Shown in pieces: positions 114 through 5,626 of a stretch of 5,626 nucleotides of DNA. The position numbers were made by a program, and so were the translations under genes. Under the pieces are notes generated by a model. That model had not been told where the DNA came from. It was given only the letters and a program-made list of their open reading frames with translations, and ran no database searches. The stretch comes from Desulfobacterales bacterium (lineage in GTDB: Bacteria; Desulfobacterota; Desulfobacteria; Desulfobacterales; UBA5852), in NCBI GenBank assembly GCA_016735415.1, contig JAERRP010000510.1:1-5626 (forward strand), in the 5' to 3' direction. The stretch's first letter is position 1; every line of letters starts with the position of its first letter.

Positions 114-1466
114 ATGCCCCTATCGCCTCTAACGGCCATCTCGCCGGTGGACGGACGCTACCGCCGGGCAGTCGAAGCACTGGCCGGTCAGTTTTCCGAA
201 AGTGCCCTGATCCGCTACCGCGTGCGGGTGGAGATCGAATACTTTATCGCCTTGTGCGAACTGCCCCTGCCGCCCCTGGCCGCGGTGGACCGGGCCCGGT
301 TCGAACCCCTGCGGTCGATCTATCGTGATTTCAGCCTGGCCGACGCCGAAGCCGTCAAGGCCATCGAAGGCAAGACCAACCACGACGTCAAGGCGGTCGA
401 ATATTTCCTCAAGGAGCGTTTCGAGGCCCTGGGGCTGGGGAACCACAAGGAATTCATTCATTTCGGCCTGACCTCCCAGGATATCAACAACACGGCCATA
501 CCACTTTCCCTGCGCGACGCCTGGACGACGGTCGTAGGGCCCCTTTTCGACGAGGTCGCGACCGCCCTCAGGGAGCGCGTGCAGGAATGGAAAGACGTGC
601 CCCTGCTGGCCCGCACCCATGGCCAGCCGGCCTCACCCACCGGCCTGGGCAAGGAAATTCAGGTGTTTGTCGAACGTCTGGAGCAGCAGCGGGTGCTTCT
701 GGCGGCCGTGCCTTTTTCCGGCAAGTTCGGCGGCGCCACGGGCAATTTCAACGCCCACCTTGTGGCCTATCCCGAAGTCGACTGGCCGGCCTTCGCGGAC
801 CGGCTGGTGAACGAGGTGCTGGGACTCAAGCGCTGCCGGGTGACGACCCAGATCGAGCCCTACGACAACCTGGCGGCCTTCTGCGACGGGCTTAAACGCC
901 TGAACACCATCCTGCTGGATTTCGACCGGGACATCTGGACCTATGTTGCCATGGGTTACTTCCGCCAGAAGATCAATAAAGGCGAGGTGGGATCTTCCAC
1001 CATGCCCCACAAGGTCAACCCGATCGATTTCGAGAACTCCGAGGGCAACCTGGGGGTGGCCAACGCCCTCCTTGCGCACCTGGCCGCCAAACTGCCGATC
1101 TCCCGTCTCCAGCGCGACCTGACCGACTCCACCGTGACCCGCAATATCGGGGTGCCCCTGGCGCACACCGTGATCGCCCTGAAATCCCTGCTGCGCGGGC
1201 TGGCGAAACTCCTGATCGACACCGAGACCATCAAGCGGGATCTGGAAGCCAACTGGGCCGTGGTGACCGAAGGCATCCAGACGGTCCTGCGCCGTGTGGG
1301 TTATCCCAACCCCTACGAGGCGCTGAAGGCGCTGGCGCGCACCAACAAACCCATCGACCGGGCTATGATTCAGGCCTTTATCGACGAACTGGATGTCGAC
1401 GATACGGTCAAGGCCGAACTCAAGGCCATTACCCCGCTGAACTACACGGGCGTGCCGCTGGTCTGA
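114..1466 (+). CDS. purB: Adenylosuccinate lyase (PurB)
   Basis: PurB is a cytoplasmic homotetrameric lyase of the fumarase/aspartase superfamily. It releases fumarate twice in purine synthesis: SAICAR to AICAR, and adenylosuccinate to AMP. The 450-residue protein opens with LTAISPVDGRYRRAV, the typical start of the E. coli-like type. HFGLTSQDINNTA (residues 116-128) and ARTHGQPASPTGLGKE (from about 166) follow; His169 matches the catalytic histidine region (His171 in E. coli). The superfamily signature SSTMPHKVNPIDFENSEGN starts at Ser294, with the catalytic serine of the mobile loop at 294/295. Length is close to the 456 residues of the E. coli enzyme and no key residue is missing. I chose ATG 114 over the in-frame TTG at 63 because the 17 extra residues are not family-like and the putative promoter would leave almost no leader. 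The Shine-Dalgarno is weak. Family assignment is secure. Confidence 0.97.
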   Translation: MPLSPLTAISPVDGRYRRAVEALAGQFSESALIRYRVRVEIEYFIALCELPLPPLAAVDRARFEPLRSIYRDFSLADAEAVKAIEGKTNHDVKAVEYFLKERFEALGLGNHKEFIHFGLTSQDINNTAIPLSLRDAWTTVVGPLFDEVATALRERVQEWKDVPLLARTHGQPASPTGLGKEIQVFVERLEQQRVLLAAVPFSGKFGGATGNFNAHLVAYPEVDWPAFADRLVNEVLGLKRCRVTTQIEPYDNLAAFCDGLKRLNTILLDFDRDIWTYVAMGYFRQKINKGEVGSSTMPHKVNPIDFENSEGNLGVANALLAHLAAKLPISRLQRDLTDSTVTRNIGVPLAHTVIALKSLLRGLAKLLIDTETIKRDLEANWAVVTEGIQTVLRRVGYPNPYEALKALARTNKPIDRAMIQAFIDELDVDDTVKAELKAITPLNYTGVPLV

Positions 1467-1495
1467 CCGGACCTTCGATGTTTTCCACCATGGCA

Positions 1496-1525
1496 GAGGC
1501 ACCCTCAGTGTAAGGGGGGCGCCTC
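1496..1525 (+). terminator. GC-rich hairpin after purB, possible terminator
   Basis: GAGGCACCCTC at 1496-1506 pairs with GGGGGCGCCTC at 1515-1525. The stem has ten base pairs, including one T-G wobble, plus one A-C mismatch, and an 8-base loop. It begins 29 bases after the purB stop and ends 58 bases before the next gene. No U-tract follows directly; the nearest T run, TTTTT, lies about 16 bases downstream. It is therefore not a textbook intrinsic terminator and may instead be a 3'-end stabilising or processing structure. The fold is seen in the sequence; its role is inferred. Confidence 0.35.
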
Positions 1526-1572
1526 AATCTACAGCCCTAGTTTTTACGACCGCTCACCCCTGTCCAGCAACC

Positions 1573-1579
1573 AAGGAGG
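1573..1579 (+). promoter_or_regulatory. Strong Shine-Dalgarno of the binding-protein gene
   Basis: AAGGAGG ends four bases before ATG 1584 and is the best ribosome-binding site in the window. It fixes the start of the solute-binding protein gene. The permease and ATPase starts have much poorer sites. This fits the usual need for excess periplasmic binding protein over membrane components. No convincing separate promoter for this gene was found in 1467-1583. Confidence 0.8.
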
Positions 1580-1583
1580 CGTT

Positions 1584-3326
1584 ATGAAAAAATTATCGGT
1601 TTTTTTGTCTGTGCTTCTTATTCTGGCATTTGCCGTCAGTGTCCATGCGGCCGCCAAAAACCCGGACACCTTTGTCTTTGCCACCTACGGCACCCTGCGC
1701 ACCCTGGACCCCTGCGTGGCCTATGATACGACCTCCTCCCAGCGGCTCTGGAACATTTACGAGCCGCTGGTTTTTTTTGACGGCGGTCATACCGACAAGT
1801 TCAAGCCGCTGCTGGCAACGGCGGTGCCCACCCTTGCCAACGGGGGCATTTCGGAGGACGGCAAAACCTATACCTTTACCATTCGGAAAGGGGTGAAGTT
1901 TCACGAGGGCCAGGGTCTGACCCCCGGGGACGTGGTTTACAGCTTTAAACGCAACATGATGGCGGACCCGGACGGCGGTCCCATGTGGATGCTGCTCGAA
2001 GCCCTTACCGGCGAGGGGTCCACCCGTGACAAGGACGGTAAGCTGATTCCCGGCATCATGGAGAAGATCGACCGCTGCGTCGAAGCCAAAGGGGATCAGG
2101 TGATTTTCCACCTGCCCAATCCCTATCCGCCGTTCATGGGTATTCTGGCCTATTCCGCCTCGGTGGTGATGAGCAAGACGTGGTGCGTGGCCAACGGCTG
2201 CTGGGACGGATCATTGGCCACGGCCGCCAAGTTCAACAACCCGGCGCCGGGACACGAGCCCCTGTTGAAGGTCGCCAACGGCACCAACGCTTACAAGATG
2301 AAGTCCTGGGAACCCAGCAAACAGTTCGTGTTCGAGCGTTTTGACGGGTACTGGGGCGGCCGGGCCAAAATCAAAACCGCCATCATCAAATATGTGAAGG
2401 AATGGAGCACGCGCAAACTCATGCTCCAGAACGGTGATGCCGATCGCGTGACCGTGGACAATCCCTATGTGCCCGAAGTCAAGGAAATGAAAGGGCTCAC
2501 ATTCTACGAAATACCCCAGCTTTCGGTCAGCATGGCCTTTTTCTGCCGTAAGATTAACCCCGCCGGCAACCCCAATATCGGCAGCGGCAAACTGGACGGC
2601 GATGGCATTCCGCCGGATTTTTTCAGCGACATCAACGTGCGCAAGGCTTTTCTGCACGCTTTCGACCGTGCCACCTACGCCCAGGACGTCTTCAACGGGC
2701 TGGTGGTCATGCCCACCAGCCCCAATATCAAGGGGCTGGCTTTTCACAAGGAGGTGCCGGTCTACGCTTTCGATCTGACCAAATCCACGGAATACATGAA
2801 GAAGGCCTTCGGCGGTCAGGTGTGGGAAAAAGGCTTTAAAATGATCATTACCCACAATACGGGCAACGAGATGCGTGAAGCGGCGGCCCTGATGATGGCC
2901 GAAAACATCATGTCCCTCAACCCCAAGTTCCGGATTGAGGTCCGCAATGTGGAATGGAAGGACTATCTGGTCAAGTACCGCAACTACATGTATCCGATCT
3001 TTCTGATCGGGTGGGGTGCGGATTATGCCGATCCGCACAATTTCGTATACACCTTCATGCATTCCAAGGGGGTCTACGGGCGGTACATGGCCTACCAGAA
3101 TGATGAAGTGGATCGCCTGAGTGAAGAGGGCATCGCCACCATCGATCCGGCTAAACGGGGAATAATATACTCACGGCTGCAGGATCTTTTCTACGAGGAG
3201 GCCATTGCCGTGCCGCTCTACCAGCAGATCGTGGTGCGGGCCTATCGCGGCTGGGTCAAGGGATACACTCCCAACCCCATGCTGATGGACGCCAACGAGA
3301 TGCTGATGGAGATCCGGAAGGAGTAA
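1584..3326 (+). CDS. ABC transporter solute-binding protein, family 5 (peptide/nickel-type)
   Basis: This is the extracytoplasmic ligand receptor of an ABC importer (SBP_bac_5, the DppA/OppA/NikA family). Residues 1-22 form a Sec signal peptide: MKK, a hydrophobic core, then a signal peptidase I site after VHA (or after the following AA). There is no lipobox cysteine, so a soluble periplasmic protein is expected. Family hallmarks in order are YEPLVFFDGG (about 59-68), DGKTYTFTIRKGVKFHEG (92-109), DVVYSFKRNM (116-125), NVRKAFLHAFDRATY (351-365) and GWGADYADPHNFVYTFMHS (476-494). The 580-residue length is somewhat above the usual 500-550 of the family. The mature protein has five cysteines (44, 165, 201, 206, 321), more than typical. 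A strong Shine-Dalgarno precedes the start, and the gene heads the operon with permeases 3' of it. Family is clear; the ligand (di- or oligopeptide, metal complex, glycan fragment or other) cannot be decided from sequence. Confidence 0.93.
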   Translation: MKKLSVFLSVLLILAFAVSVHAAAKNPDTFVFATYGTLRTLDPCVAYDTTSSQRLWNIYEPLVFFDGGHTDKFKPLLATAVPTLANGGISEDGKTYTFTIRKGVKFHEGQGLTPGDVVYSFKRNMMADPDGGPMWMLLEALTGEGSTRDKDGKLIPGIMEKIDRCVEAKGDQVIFHLPNPYPPFMGILAYSASVVMSKTWCVANGCWDGSLATAAKFNNPAPGHEPLLKVANGTNAYKMKSWEPSKQFVFERFDGYWGGRAKIKTAIIKYVKEWSTRKLMLQNGDADRVTVDNPYVPEVKEMKGLTFYEIPQLSVSMAFFCRKINPAGNPNIGSGKLDGDGIPPDFFSDINVRKAFLHAFDRATYAQDVFNGLVVMPTSPNIKGLAFHKEVPVYAFDLTKSTEYMKKAFGGQVWEKGFKMIITHNTGNEMREAAALMMAENIMSLNPKFRIEVRNVEWKDYLVKYRNYMYPIFLIGWGADYADPHNFVYTFMHSKGVYGRYMAYQNDEVDRLSEEGIATIDPAKRGIIYSRLQDLFYEEAIAVPLYQQIVVRAYRGWVKGYTPNPMLMDANEMLMEIRKE

Positions 3327-3349
3327 TGCCCTGAAACAGCATTGAAGAT

Positions 3350-3385
3350 GACCGGCCGATGGGAAATTGATTCCTGTCGGCCGTC
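3350..3385 (+). other. Strong intercistronic hairpin between binding-protein and permease genes
   Basis: Positions 3353-3365 pair without interruption to 3371-3383: 13 base pairs, including two G-T wobbles, around the 5-base loop ATTGA. Two further pairs (3350-3351 with 3384-3385) add to the base across one bulged C at 3352. The arms centre on CGGCCGA and TCGGCCG. It lies 23 bases after the binding-protein stop and 34 bases before the permease ATG. No T run follows, so a complete terminator is unlikely. By analogy with other binding-protein operons it may protect the upstream message from 3' exonucleases or reduce readthrough. The structure is seen; the role is inferred. Confidence 0.65.
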
Positions 3386-3419
3386 AAATGACTTCTGTAT
3401 GGCATTTCTCCGGGAGATC

Positions 3420-4451
3420 ATGCCTACCTATATCCTCAGGCGGTTTTTCTTTCTTATCTTTGTGCTTTTCGGCGTGTCGGTGCTGTTGTTCGGCATCCTG
3501 ATGACTTTCAGCCCCGAGCGCCGGGCGGCTGCCTATGTCACCACCCCCCAGCAGGCCAAGGACATTCCGCGCATCATCAAACAGTTTGGCCTCGACGATC
3601 CCTTTTACATCCAGTACGTGCGCTGGATCAAGGAGGTGGCCCGGGGGAATCTGGGCTGGTCGCTGGTGGCCGCGCGTCCCGTCCGGGAAGCCTTCTGGCG
3701 CTATTTCCCCATCACCCTGGAGATGAACCTGTACGCCGCCCCCATCGTCATTTTTCTGGGGATATGGCTGGGGTCCGTTTCCGGCATTCACCGGGACAGC
3801 TGGATCGATCACAGCTCACGAATTTTCGCGATTATCGGATGGTCGCTGCCGACATTCCTTTTTGCCCTGGTTCTGCTGATGGTGTTTTACGGCTATTTTC
3901 AGATTTTTTCCCCCGGCGTGCTGAGCGATGAACTGGCCATGTCGATCATCGATCATCCGGAACAGTACACGGCCTATACCGGCATGCTCACCATCGACGG
4001 CCTGCTGAACGGCCGGCCGGACATCGCCCTGGACGCCATGCGCCATCTCGTTCTGCCCATTACGACATACGTGATCGTGGTGGTGGCCCTCAACATGCGG
4101 GTCATGCGCTCCGGCATTATCGAGGAGCTGTCCAAGGACTATGTCCTCACCGCCCGGGCCAAGGGCGCCGACCGCAAGACAATTAATTACCGGCATGCCC
4201 GCCGCAATGCCCTGCTGCCCGTCGTGACCGTGGCGGGGCAGCTGATGGCCATGTCCATGGAGGGCAGTATCGCCGTGGAAGTGGTCTACAACCGGCAGGG
4301 CATCGGCTGGTGGCTGGCCGAATCCGCCACCCAGCTGGACATGCCGGTGCTGATGTGCATCTGTCTTTTCATGGGCCTGGTGTTCGTGGTCACCAACCTG
4401 ACCATCGATATCCTGTACGCCTATATCGACCCGCGAATTCGGTTGAATTGA
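3420..4451 (+). CDS. ABC transporter permease, DppB/OppB-like
   Basis: One of two inner-membrane channel subunits of the importer (BPD_transp_1 fold). The 343-residue protein starts with ILRRFFFLIFVLFGVSVLLFG, the usual first membrane helix of this family. The conserved periplasmic segment includes FGLDDPFYIQYVRWIKE (about 56-72) and GNLGWS. Further hydrophobic segments lie near 103-121, 134-160, 208-228, 262-285 and 309-336. The EAA cytoplasmic loop that docks the ATPase is clear: DYVLTARAKGADRK (240-253), then RHARRNALLPVVT (258-270). The C-terminus DPRIRLN is also family-like. Length is close to E. coli DppB (339). I chose ATG 3420, preceded by GGGAG at short spacing. In-frame starts at 3342, 3348 and 3399 would add non-family residues, and the first two would translate through the hairpin at 3350-3385. 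A start at ATG 3399 cannot be excluded. Confidence 0.93.
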   Translation: MPTYILRRFFFLIFVLFGVSVLLFGILMTFSPERRAAAYVTTPQQAKDIPRIIKQFGLDDPFYIQYVRWIKEVARGNLGWSLVAARPVREAFWRYFPITLEMNLYAAPIVIFLGIWLGSVSGIHRDSWIDHSSRIFAIIGWSLPTFLFALVLLMVFYGYFQIFSPGVLSDELAMSIIDHPEQYTAYTGMLTIDGLLNGRPDIALDAMRHLVLPITTYVIVVVALNMRVMRSGIIEELSKDYVLTARAKGADRKTINYRHARRNALLPVVTVAGQLMAMSMEGSIAVEVVYNRQGIGWWLAESATQLDMPVLMCICLFMGLVFVVTNLTIDILYAYIDPRIRLN

Positions 4452-4463
4452 GCATTGGACGCT

Positions 4464-5369
4464 ATGGATAACACCCATCCAGGCCTGCGCGAGATAAAGT
4501 ATACGCTCTACCGTATTTTCCGCAATCCGTCGGCCATCATCGGATTCACGCTGCTGCTGTTTTTCCTGGGCGTGGCCGTGTTCGCGCCGGTACTGGCGCC
4601 GCCCAGATATGCTCACAACCCCTACCAGATGCCCCACCAGGGCTATTCGCCGACCCCCAAAGCGCCGGGCCCCAAAGCGATTTTCGGCACCACTTCCGGC
4701 CAGTACGACATCTACTACGGCGTCGTGTGGGGCACGCGCACGGCCTTCAAGATCGGGCTCTTCGTGGTTTTTATTTCGAGCTTTGTCGGGGTGGGGCTGG
4801 GGGCGGTATCCGGTTATTACGGCGGGTGGATAGATGAGATCCTCATGCGGGTCACCGATATCATGTGGGCTATTCCCACCCTGGTGCTGGCCATGGCCAT
4901 CGTGGTGGCCTTCGGGCGGGGCCTCGATAAAGTCATGATTGCCCTGGCACTGATCCAGTGGCGCTGGTACGTGCGCGTCATCCGTTCGGAAATTCTGACC
5001 CTCAGGGACCAGGATTTCGTGCAGGCCGCCCGCATCATGGGCGTGTCCGACCTGAAGATCATCCTGCGCCATATCCTGCCCAACGCGATCTATCCGGTGT
5101 TGATCATGGCTTCCATGGACATGGGCTCCATGGTGATCACGGCCTCTTTCATGAGTTTTGTGGGGCTGGGGGCTCCCAAGGGATATGCCGACTGGGGCCA
5201 GATGGTGGCCCTGGCCCGCAACTATATCGTCGGACCGCCGGATGATCCCCTGCGTTTCTGGTACACCATCGCTATTCCGGGGGCCTGCATCATCCTGTTC
5301 GTTCTGGCCTGGAATCTCATCGGCGATGCCCTGCGGGACGCGTTTGATCCCAAGTTGCGCCGTAGGTAG
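4464..5369 (+). CDS. ABC transporter permease, DppC/OppC-like
   Basis: The second inner-membrane channel subunit, expected to pair with the DppB-like protein just upstream. The 301-residue protein has the DppC/OppC order. An N-terminal cytoplasmic stretch (LYRIFRNPSAIIGF, about 15-28) leads into the first membrane helix (24-45). A periplasmic segment with FGTTSGQYDIYYGVVWGTRTA (74-94) precedes helices near 95-117, 131-152, 157-173, 207-233 and 268-289. The EAA loop reads DFVQAARIMGVSDLKIILRH (184-203), followed by LPNAIYPVLI. FVGLGAPKGYADWGQM (232-247) and the terminal GDALRDAFDPKLRRR are also typical. It starts 12 bases after the previous stop, so translational coupling is likely. TTG 4455 would add only three residues; ATG 4464 is preferred although both starts have weak ribosome-binding sites. 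No defect is seen. Only three bases separate its stop codon from the large palindrome downstream. Confidence 0.93.
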   Translation: MDNTHPGLREIKYTLYRIFRNPSAIIGFTLLLFFLGVAVFAPVLAPPRYAHNPYQMPHQGYSPTPKAPGPKAIFGTTSGQYDIYYGVVWGTRTAFKIGLFVVFISSFVGVGLGAVSGYYGGWIDEILMRVTDIMWAIPTLVLAMAIVVAFGRGLDKVMIALALIQWRWYVRVIRSEILTLRDQDFVQAARIMGVSDLKIILRHILPNAIYPVLIMASMDMGSMVITASFMSFVGLGAPKGYADWGQMVALARNYIVGPPDDPLRFWYTIAIPGACIILFVLAWNLIGDALRDAFDPKLRRR

Positions 5370-5372
5370 CCA

Positions 5373-5513
5373 GTGTCCGTCCGGAAATGGTCTTTTTTGC
5401 TCTGCTCGGTGGGTCGTAGCGGGGTTCCGGCTGCGGCGTACAACAGTACGCCTCACCGCAACCCCTTCTGCAGCTGTAGCAGAACAAAAAATCCTCATTT
5501 CCGAATCGGACAC
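5373..5513. repeat. 141-bp imperfect palindrome, putative dispersed repeat or MITE-like element
   Basis: Nearly the whole stretch folds on itself. Pairing blocks from outside in are: GTGTCCG 5373-5379 with 5507-5513; CGGAAATG 5382-5389 with 5496-5503; TTTTTTG 5393-5399 with 5485-5491; TCTGCT 5401-5406 with 5478-5483; GGGGTT 5421-5426 with 5460-5465; GGCGTAC 5435-5441 with 5446-5452. The tetraloop is AACA at 5442-5445. The segment 5407-5420 against 5466-5477 is mostly unpaired. The dA and dT runs sit inside the stem, so this is not an intrinsic terminator on either strand. It fills most of the gap between permease and ATPase genes. No protein is recognised inside and no target-site duplication is apparent. 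The palindrome is seen directly; calling it a mobile or multicopy repeat is inference. Confidence 0.85.
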
Positions 5514-5514
5514 G

Positions 5515-5559
5515 ATGGCGACTTTGATAAATCCACGGATGGACAATAGCCAAGTATGA
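5515..5559 (+). other. Possible 14-codon leader ORF coupled to the ATPase gene
   Basis: ATG 5515 opens a short frame (MATLINPRMDNSQV) whose TGA at 5557-5559 overlaps the ATPase start as ATGA. It begins one base after the palindrome ends. Such an arrangement could deliver ribosomes to the weakly signalled ATPase start. There is no good Shine-Dalgarno (only GGA at 5508-5510, within the stem) and the peptide resembles nothing I know. It may be chance. Confidence 0.15.
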
Positions 5560-5626
5560 CGGTTCTGCTAAAGACCGAAAATCTGGTCACCAATTTTTAC
5601 ACTTACGAGGGTGTCGTGCGGGCCTT
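5556..5626 (+). CDS. ABC transporter ATP-binding protein, DppD/OppD-like (5' part only)
   Basis: The frame from ATG 5556 runs to the window edge and reads MTVLLKTENLVTNFYTYEGV, then VRA. This matches the first beta strands of OppD/DppD-type ATPases, where LLEVKNL-type residues lead to a FYTYEGVVxAL segment ahead of the Walker A motif. Walker A, Walker B and the signature motif would lie beyond the window. The subunit should bind the EAA loops of the two permeases on the cytoplasmic face and hydrolyse ATP. An in-frame TAG at 5547-5549 shows that this is the first possible ATG. The ribosome-binding site is poor. The gene starts 186 bases after the second permease stop, an unusually long gap for this operon type, which the palindrome largely explains. 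A second ATPase gene (DppF/OppF-like) is expected downstream. Confidence 0.8.
   Translation, partial: MTVLLKTENLVTNFYTYEGVVRA

Follow-up and report, generated by a model that had tools for sequence, protein, structure and literature searches.

The bacterial MITEs RUP, Correia/NEMIS, ERIC and YPAL are short, non-coding and often intergenic; they carry inverted repeats, duplicate their target and form a hairpin when transcribed, and RUP has its ends in common with an insertion sequence (IS), as far as the accessible part of the source describes them (PMC2229807). The BOX repeat of pneumococcus often lies at the extreme 3' end of a gene and supplies its stop codon, an arrangement that the available portion of one report gives for 36 of 58 overlapping CDSs (PMC3049150). 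IS1202 and ISAjo2 are filed under ISNCY, and elements of the ISAjo2 type insert the same way round, at a set distance from a landmark, according to the part of the source at hand (PMC10132070). The element described here resembles each of these systems in the traits just named and is set apart from them by their descriptions, to the same partial extent of the sources. The descriptions of RUP, Correia/NEMIS, ERIC and YPAL mention neither one-way anchoring exactly at stop codons nor arms that co-evolve in situ (PMC2229807); BOX encodes the stop codon inside the repeat (PMC3049150); and for IS1202 and ISAjo2 the landmark is dif, the target site duplication (TSD) is 3-5, >15 or 0 bp and the ends are TGT (PMC10132070). 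Among the matches listed in the open-access literature, judged by titles and the starts of abstracts, none described the element, and an earlier description in print is possible.

The window, by which we mean the whole stretch of 5,626 nt that was analysed, carries an adenylosuccinate lyase gene and, after it, an operon for a peptide ABC transporter with a binding protein and two permeases (114-5369). The last of these genes is oppC, an ABC peptide transporter permease (4464-5369, plus strand; Pfam BPD_transp_1 and OppC_N) that ends with a TAG at 5367-5369. The start of a further plus-strand gene follows, with its ATG at 5556, and runs off the window (5556-5626); from its place after oppC in relatives, this gene is taken to be oppD. 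Between the two lies an imperfect hairpin of 141 nt (5373-5513, drawn without regard to strand). In the predicted fold its 55 pairs run from an outermost pair, 5373-5513, to an innermost pair, 5441-5446, which closes an AACA loop at 5442-5445. Compared to 200 dinucleotide shuffles, with a mean minimum free energy of -54.8 kcal/mol, the region 5353-5533 folds at -81.8 kcal/mol (z -6.33), and none of the 200 shuffles did as well. These results confirm the near full-length 141-bp palindrome with an AACA loop that an earlier note had reported from the letters alone, and its count of 41 pairs in six blocks was correct and conservative. R1, a covariance model of the hairpin, matched the window on the plus strand at 5373-5515 with 133.9 bits and on the minus strand at 5371-5513 with 44.9 bits.

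The coordinates 5373-5513 hold for the hairpin but not for the full element, which reaches 5546 and is flanked by a 6-bp direct repeat that had gone unmentioned. Altogether, the element is 174 bp long (5373-5546). Its left terminal inverted repeat is GTGTCCGTCC (10 bp, 5373-5382, plus strand). A tail at 5514-5546 (plus strand), delimited by comparison with complete young copies, connects the hairpin to the right end and includes the right terminal inverted repeat (5537-5546, minus strand; reverse complement TTGTCCATCC), which has 9/10 matches to the right end of the family. Outside both ends lies a perfect 6-bp TSD, TAGCCA, at 5367-5372 and 5547-5552. Since the TSD begins with the oppC stop codon, removal of the element plus one repeat leaves the oppC frame and its stop unchanged. 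As at an empty site, a short oppC-oppD spacer in a relative (L009) aligns with the window minus the element and one TSD. The nearest oppC relatives (94% and 93% amino-acid identity; L001 and L002) come from metagenome-assembled genomes labelled Deltaproteobacteria, Desulfobacteraceae. In L001 the orthologous oppC-oppD spacer, around 10903-11060, retains the tail and short remnants of the arms, and the hairpin core is gone; in L002 the spacer is unrelated and the element is absent.

The element belongs to a dispersed family. A search of the genomes of 20 relatives gave matches in nine, among them 18 in G001, 23 in G002 and 7 in G009, some of them short. With R1, matches were found in 99 of the 192 class genomes sampled (E <= 1e-3), in 27 of 198 genomes of the phylum (E <= 1e-6) and in 6 of 6 genomes of G001's family (E <= 1e-6); these three samples overlap, and for the class and phylum the counts per genome derive from the best 16 scored candidates. 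Plasmid and phage collections gave no match to the element at E 1e-5. Copies were collected, best-scoring first and not at random, from a set of 100 loci, with L165 left out as the same place as L084; removal of weaker overlapping matches reduced 202 matches to 153, and removal of duplicates left 150. These range from 98 to 180 nt, and 136 of them are 140-149 nt long. An alignment of 30 of 31 sequences including the window (A1; matches of at least 90 aligned bases only, L130 being dropped as equal to L099) showed at least one double change in 20 of 32 predicted pairs. Alignments made with R1 are fitted to the structure of that model. Several unpaired positions in the same 30 copies match the paired ones in conservation. 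The earlier note had proposed many copies with compensatory changes as the check for a repeat family, and both were found.

Complete young copies in G123 and G052 revealed how the element ends. It passes the palindrome to a right end, GGATGGRCAC, the inverted-repeat end of the family being GTKTCCATCC, and a 6-bp direct repeat lies outside both ends. This right end was recognisable (at least 8 of 10 matches) in 57 of the 150 copies, the other 93 falling below 8. A perfect 6-bp TSD flanked 25 of the 57, compared to 0.8 per round when left flanks were swapped. In the 44 copies with end and TSD intact, the TSD has the form TAnnTA in 28 and carries TA at one or both ends in 42. The copies are many and dispersed, and they carry no transposase gene. 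We had first read the adjacency to stop codons as the sign of a gene-end regulatory RNA; this reading was replaced once the young copies showed ends and TSDs, and because they did so, insertion explains the origin of the element.

A scan of G052 for the end motif gave inverted pairs 1,671 bp apart. The six that were fetched proved to be identical IS with GTGTCCATCC ends, each with a 6-bp duplication (TAGGTA, TATTTA, TAGCTA, TAGTTA, TAGTTA and GTACTA). Their 449-aa product matches the ISNCY family transposase model NF033593 of NCBIfam (E 1.9e-145) and, in Pfam, DDE_Tnp_1 and DUF772, as a DDE transposase. In the same genome, element and IS agree at 15 of the first 16 nt, and the first 14 nt of the window element, GTGTCCGTCCGGAA, equal the left end of another ISNCY-family IS (L297; G148). 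Among 21 further distinct ISNCY loci, five had GTGYC-type ends with a 6-bp TSD (G195, G093, G148, G143 and G027) and the other 16 did not. Three genomes (G052, G195 and G093) carry both copies and such an IS. Judged by ends and TSDs, the element is thus like the ISNCY-family IS (NF033593; L262-L266) in its 10-bp terminal inverted repeats and 6-bp TAnnTA-type duplications, and unlike them in having a conserved hairpin and no transposase gene. In L265, two identical ISNCY copies stand side by side (212-3559), with TAGTTA before, between and after them.

The six 1,671-bp IS have ends and duplications of this kind and code for a DDE transposase of the ISNCY family, so we read the element as a MITE that relies on ISNCY-family IS ends, with a probability of about 85%; its identity as a MITE is well supported. 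An ISNCY-type transposase acting in trans would have moved it. Across the 192 genomes of the class sample, a transposase over the cut-off was absent from 86 of the 99 genomes that carry copies, and by a hand tally R1 matched in 13 of 22 genomes with such a transposase and in 86 of 170 without; relatives of the G052 transposase were found in 4 of 32 hand-picked genomes. As the two do not co-occur over these 192 genomes, the case for mobilisation in trans rests on the shared ends and TSD. The earlier description of a dispersed, MITE-like palindromic repeat mobilised in trans thus gains support from the copies, the inverted-repeat ends, the 6-bp TSDs, the IS with the same ends and the compensatory changes, mobilisation itself being the part that we infer.

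Some copies depart from the common form. Tandem hairpins, head to tail and abutting, occur in L116 (1540-1830), L126 (1511-1792) and L122 (1563-1838), the first of each beginning at a stop codon, and the sites in L116 and L122 are orthologous. Two copies from G150 (L200 and L203) have the same insertion of about 19 nt near the apical loop, which marks a sub-lineage. A second tier of weaker R1 matches from G001's family consists of hairpins of equal length that have the core loops in common and otherwise differ (L316, L321, L322, L327, L328, L332-L334, L338-L340, L350-L360 and a second match in L348). Some of these have symmetrical ends, GTGTCCATCC, some start with GAAGCGATCTC and some end with GAAGCGATCTC/GAGATGGCTTC; by a looser gene rule, given below, 15 of 26 start at a stop codon.

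Many of the copies are placed with precision behind genes. In 73 of the 150, a sense gene upstream has its stop codon at the left end (offset -7 to 0 from it; genes being frames of 100 codons or more that do not overlap), comprising 15 of the 44 copies with end and TSD intact and 58 of the 106 others. By the same gene rule, the flanks contain 8,715 non-coding 6-mers with a TA, of which only 198 (2.3%) fall at sense stops. The looser rule, with frames of 80 codons, or of 25 if running off the locus, places 92 of 150 copies at stops (21/44 intact and 71/106 others; Fisher p 0.04); the control for that count used non-overlapping frames of 100 codons, hence the recount by the control's rule. Under the looser rule, the stop of an antisense frame lies at the right end in 7 of the 44 intact copies, compared to 21 at the left. 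The commonest offset is -2 (60 copies), with TA from the target and G, as a rule, from the element. Since the first base of the element is usually G, an element that inserts right after a stop codon's TA restores TAG. The products of the upstream genes look like ordinary cellular proteins. An integron attC site, for reference, has GTTRRRY/RYYYAAC core sites and belongs to a cassette array.

This placement might be wholly the work of a selfish MITE: it would hit stop codons because TA-rich 6-mers are scarce outside genes, its other insertions would be lost, and template-switching in replication would copy one arm onto the other and so keep the two complementary. Part of the stop-codon pattern follows from TA targeting together with the loss of insertions that do harm. 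The copies with an intact TSD are already enriched at stops (15/44), so that targeting may have a share in the pattern, a point that weighs against later retention. The excess over candidate sites, so few of which lie at sense stops, suggests something beyond targeting and loss.

To see what becomes of the hairpin after insertion, we compared 17 pairs of orthologous stop sites from 10 gene groups. These pairs were chosen by the upstream protein that ends at the element, so that non-stop sites are excluded; some of them depend on one another, and the sites of L097/L232, with 52% protein identity, may be paralogous. Hairpin identity was 0.58-0.95. Compared to the last 150 nt of the gene, the hairpin was within 0.10 in 12 of the 17 pairs, higher by more in one and lower by more in four, the last a point against retention. 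The 100 nt after the hairpin were at the shuffled level in 13 pairs, which a purely selfish element would not lead one to expect; in the other four, at 0.58-0.94, the downstream stretch is conserved as well, a further point against retention. A search by flanking sequence for pairs from different genomes in which both flanks match and neither member lies at a stop yielded only the tandem second copies of L116/L122.

The arms change together at these sites. Among 850 pair cells, 639 were unchanged; in 90 both bases had been replaced to give another Watson-Crick pair, in 27 both had changed in other ways, and in 94 one side had changed. Complementarity of the arms was higher within than across copies in G001, G002, G009, G003 and G159; in G002 the outer seven pairs scored 0.87 within a copy and 0.50 across copies. 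For the outer stem there was no such difference in G052, G123, G195 and G150, G177 lying in between; for the inner stem a difference appeared in G150, where none of 500 permutations reached the observed value, and a weak one in G123 and G177. Correction of one arm by the other in replication could give double changes without selection, and between L117 and L128 the differences fall in matching blocks on both arms, the pattern expected from template copying. Copying of arms does not account for the several unpaired positions whose conservation equals that of paired ones. The loss of the core at the window's own site in L001, where the tail is kept, and the absence of the element from L002 count against retention; the first of these is also what a purely selfish element would allow. 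On this balance the wholly selfish reading is a possible account of the family, somewhat short of probable.

Because ortholog hairpins are conserved, their arms change together and adjoining sequence is lost, we infer, with less certainty than for mobilisation in trans, that hairpins which have landed at stop codons tend to persist there as gene-end structures. In its full form this would be a mobile hairpin family domesticated again and again at the exact ends of genes: a MITE mobilised by ISNCY elements, with a structured core and a preferred antisense strand, selected at 3' ends after the transposon ends decay, its arms co-evolving in place. We put this forward tentatively, as an account that may well be wrong. 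The functional unit would then be the core and not the transposon ends, since the wider superfamily with other ends shares core loops and position.

The two strands of the hairpin are not equivalent in their folding. In 178 of 187 copies the better fold belongs to the strand antisense to the upstream gene (147 of the 150 and 40 of 42 further copies, short or N-bearing ones left out), compared to 59 of 130 in the control, with an average advantage of about 10 kcal/mol, or 15 in the second tier. Similarly, the consensus of the 30 copies folds at -109.4 on the antisense strand and -92.9 on the other. Where the sense strand has a C-A mismatch, the antisense strand has a G-U pair. At the ortholog sites, one-sided changes gave 14 G-U and 32 A-C on the gene-sense strand, that is 32 against 14 for G-U on the minus strand; in older copies they gave 115 G-U and 139 A-C, and in the outer 21 pairs 35 and 74 (4 and 8 weakly paired positions left out). 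Since G-U is not favoured on the sense strand, as would also suit a purely selfish element, the substitutions do not point to an mRNA hairpin, a candidate that we rejected; if a single strand matters, its better folding indicates the antisense one. We considered a structured non-coding RNA that would function from the strand opposite to the gene upstream. Both the folding bias and the one-sided changes are in its favour, the latter from ortholog pairs that are not independent. No Rfam model matched, and the 54 tails showed no clear -10 box enrichment that would make them a promoter for the antisense hairpin (TATAAT with 0-1 mismatch in 14 of 54 against 10.9 expected; perfect in 3 against 0.9). 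Such an RNA is unlikely. Of the earlier suggestion of a structured RNA, the maintained pairing and the consistently better fold of one strand stand, and membership in a known Rfam family does not.

It is less likely still that each hairpin serves as a rho-independent terminator or attenuator behind its gene. Copies do often lie directly 3' of stop codons in the sense orientation. However, the window hairpin has no T-run after its right arm, beyond 5513, its T-run being located in the left arm, so the GC-rich hairpin with T-run is lacking and the earlier remark that this is no such terminator stands. A co-directional frame longer than the convergent one follows 42 of 71 older stop-adjacent copies, and a terminator that lies several bp behind a gene is reportedly almost completely repressed, in the part of the source available (PMC4824070). 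Least credible of all is the proposal, raised in the earlier note as well, of a REP/BIME-type palindrome moved by RAYT, a Y1 tyrosine transposase, which the dispersed intergenic palindromes and PF01797 matches in 10 of 11 genomes had favoured: REP units measure 20-40 bp in the portion of the source seen (PMC3733652), compared to about 144 nt here; R1 found no copy (E <= 0.01) in the 30 loci that were fetched out of 78 PF01797 matches; G009 has copies and no PF01797 match, and G013 has 20 such matches and no copy by BLAST; and the element shares 6-bp TSDs and inverted-repeat ends with an IS that encodes a DDE transposase.

The element provides a short partner for insertion sequences that are still filed as 'not characterised yet', and its stop-codon anchoring and in-place co-evolution are the part that would interest specialists. 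Knowledge of the element would help annotation, because mechanically called frames run through the hairpin. If its retention holds, the copies amount to a replicated natural experiment in the passage from selfish insertion to gene-end structure, with the same element at the same stop-codon offset behind many unrelated genes, and the effect of a long stop-adjacent hairpin on transcript ends and operon balance would become testable.
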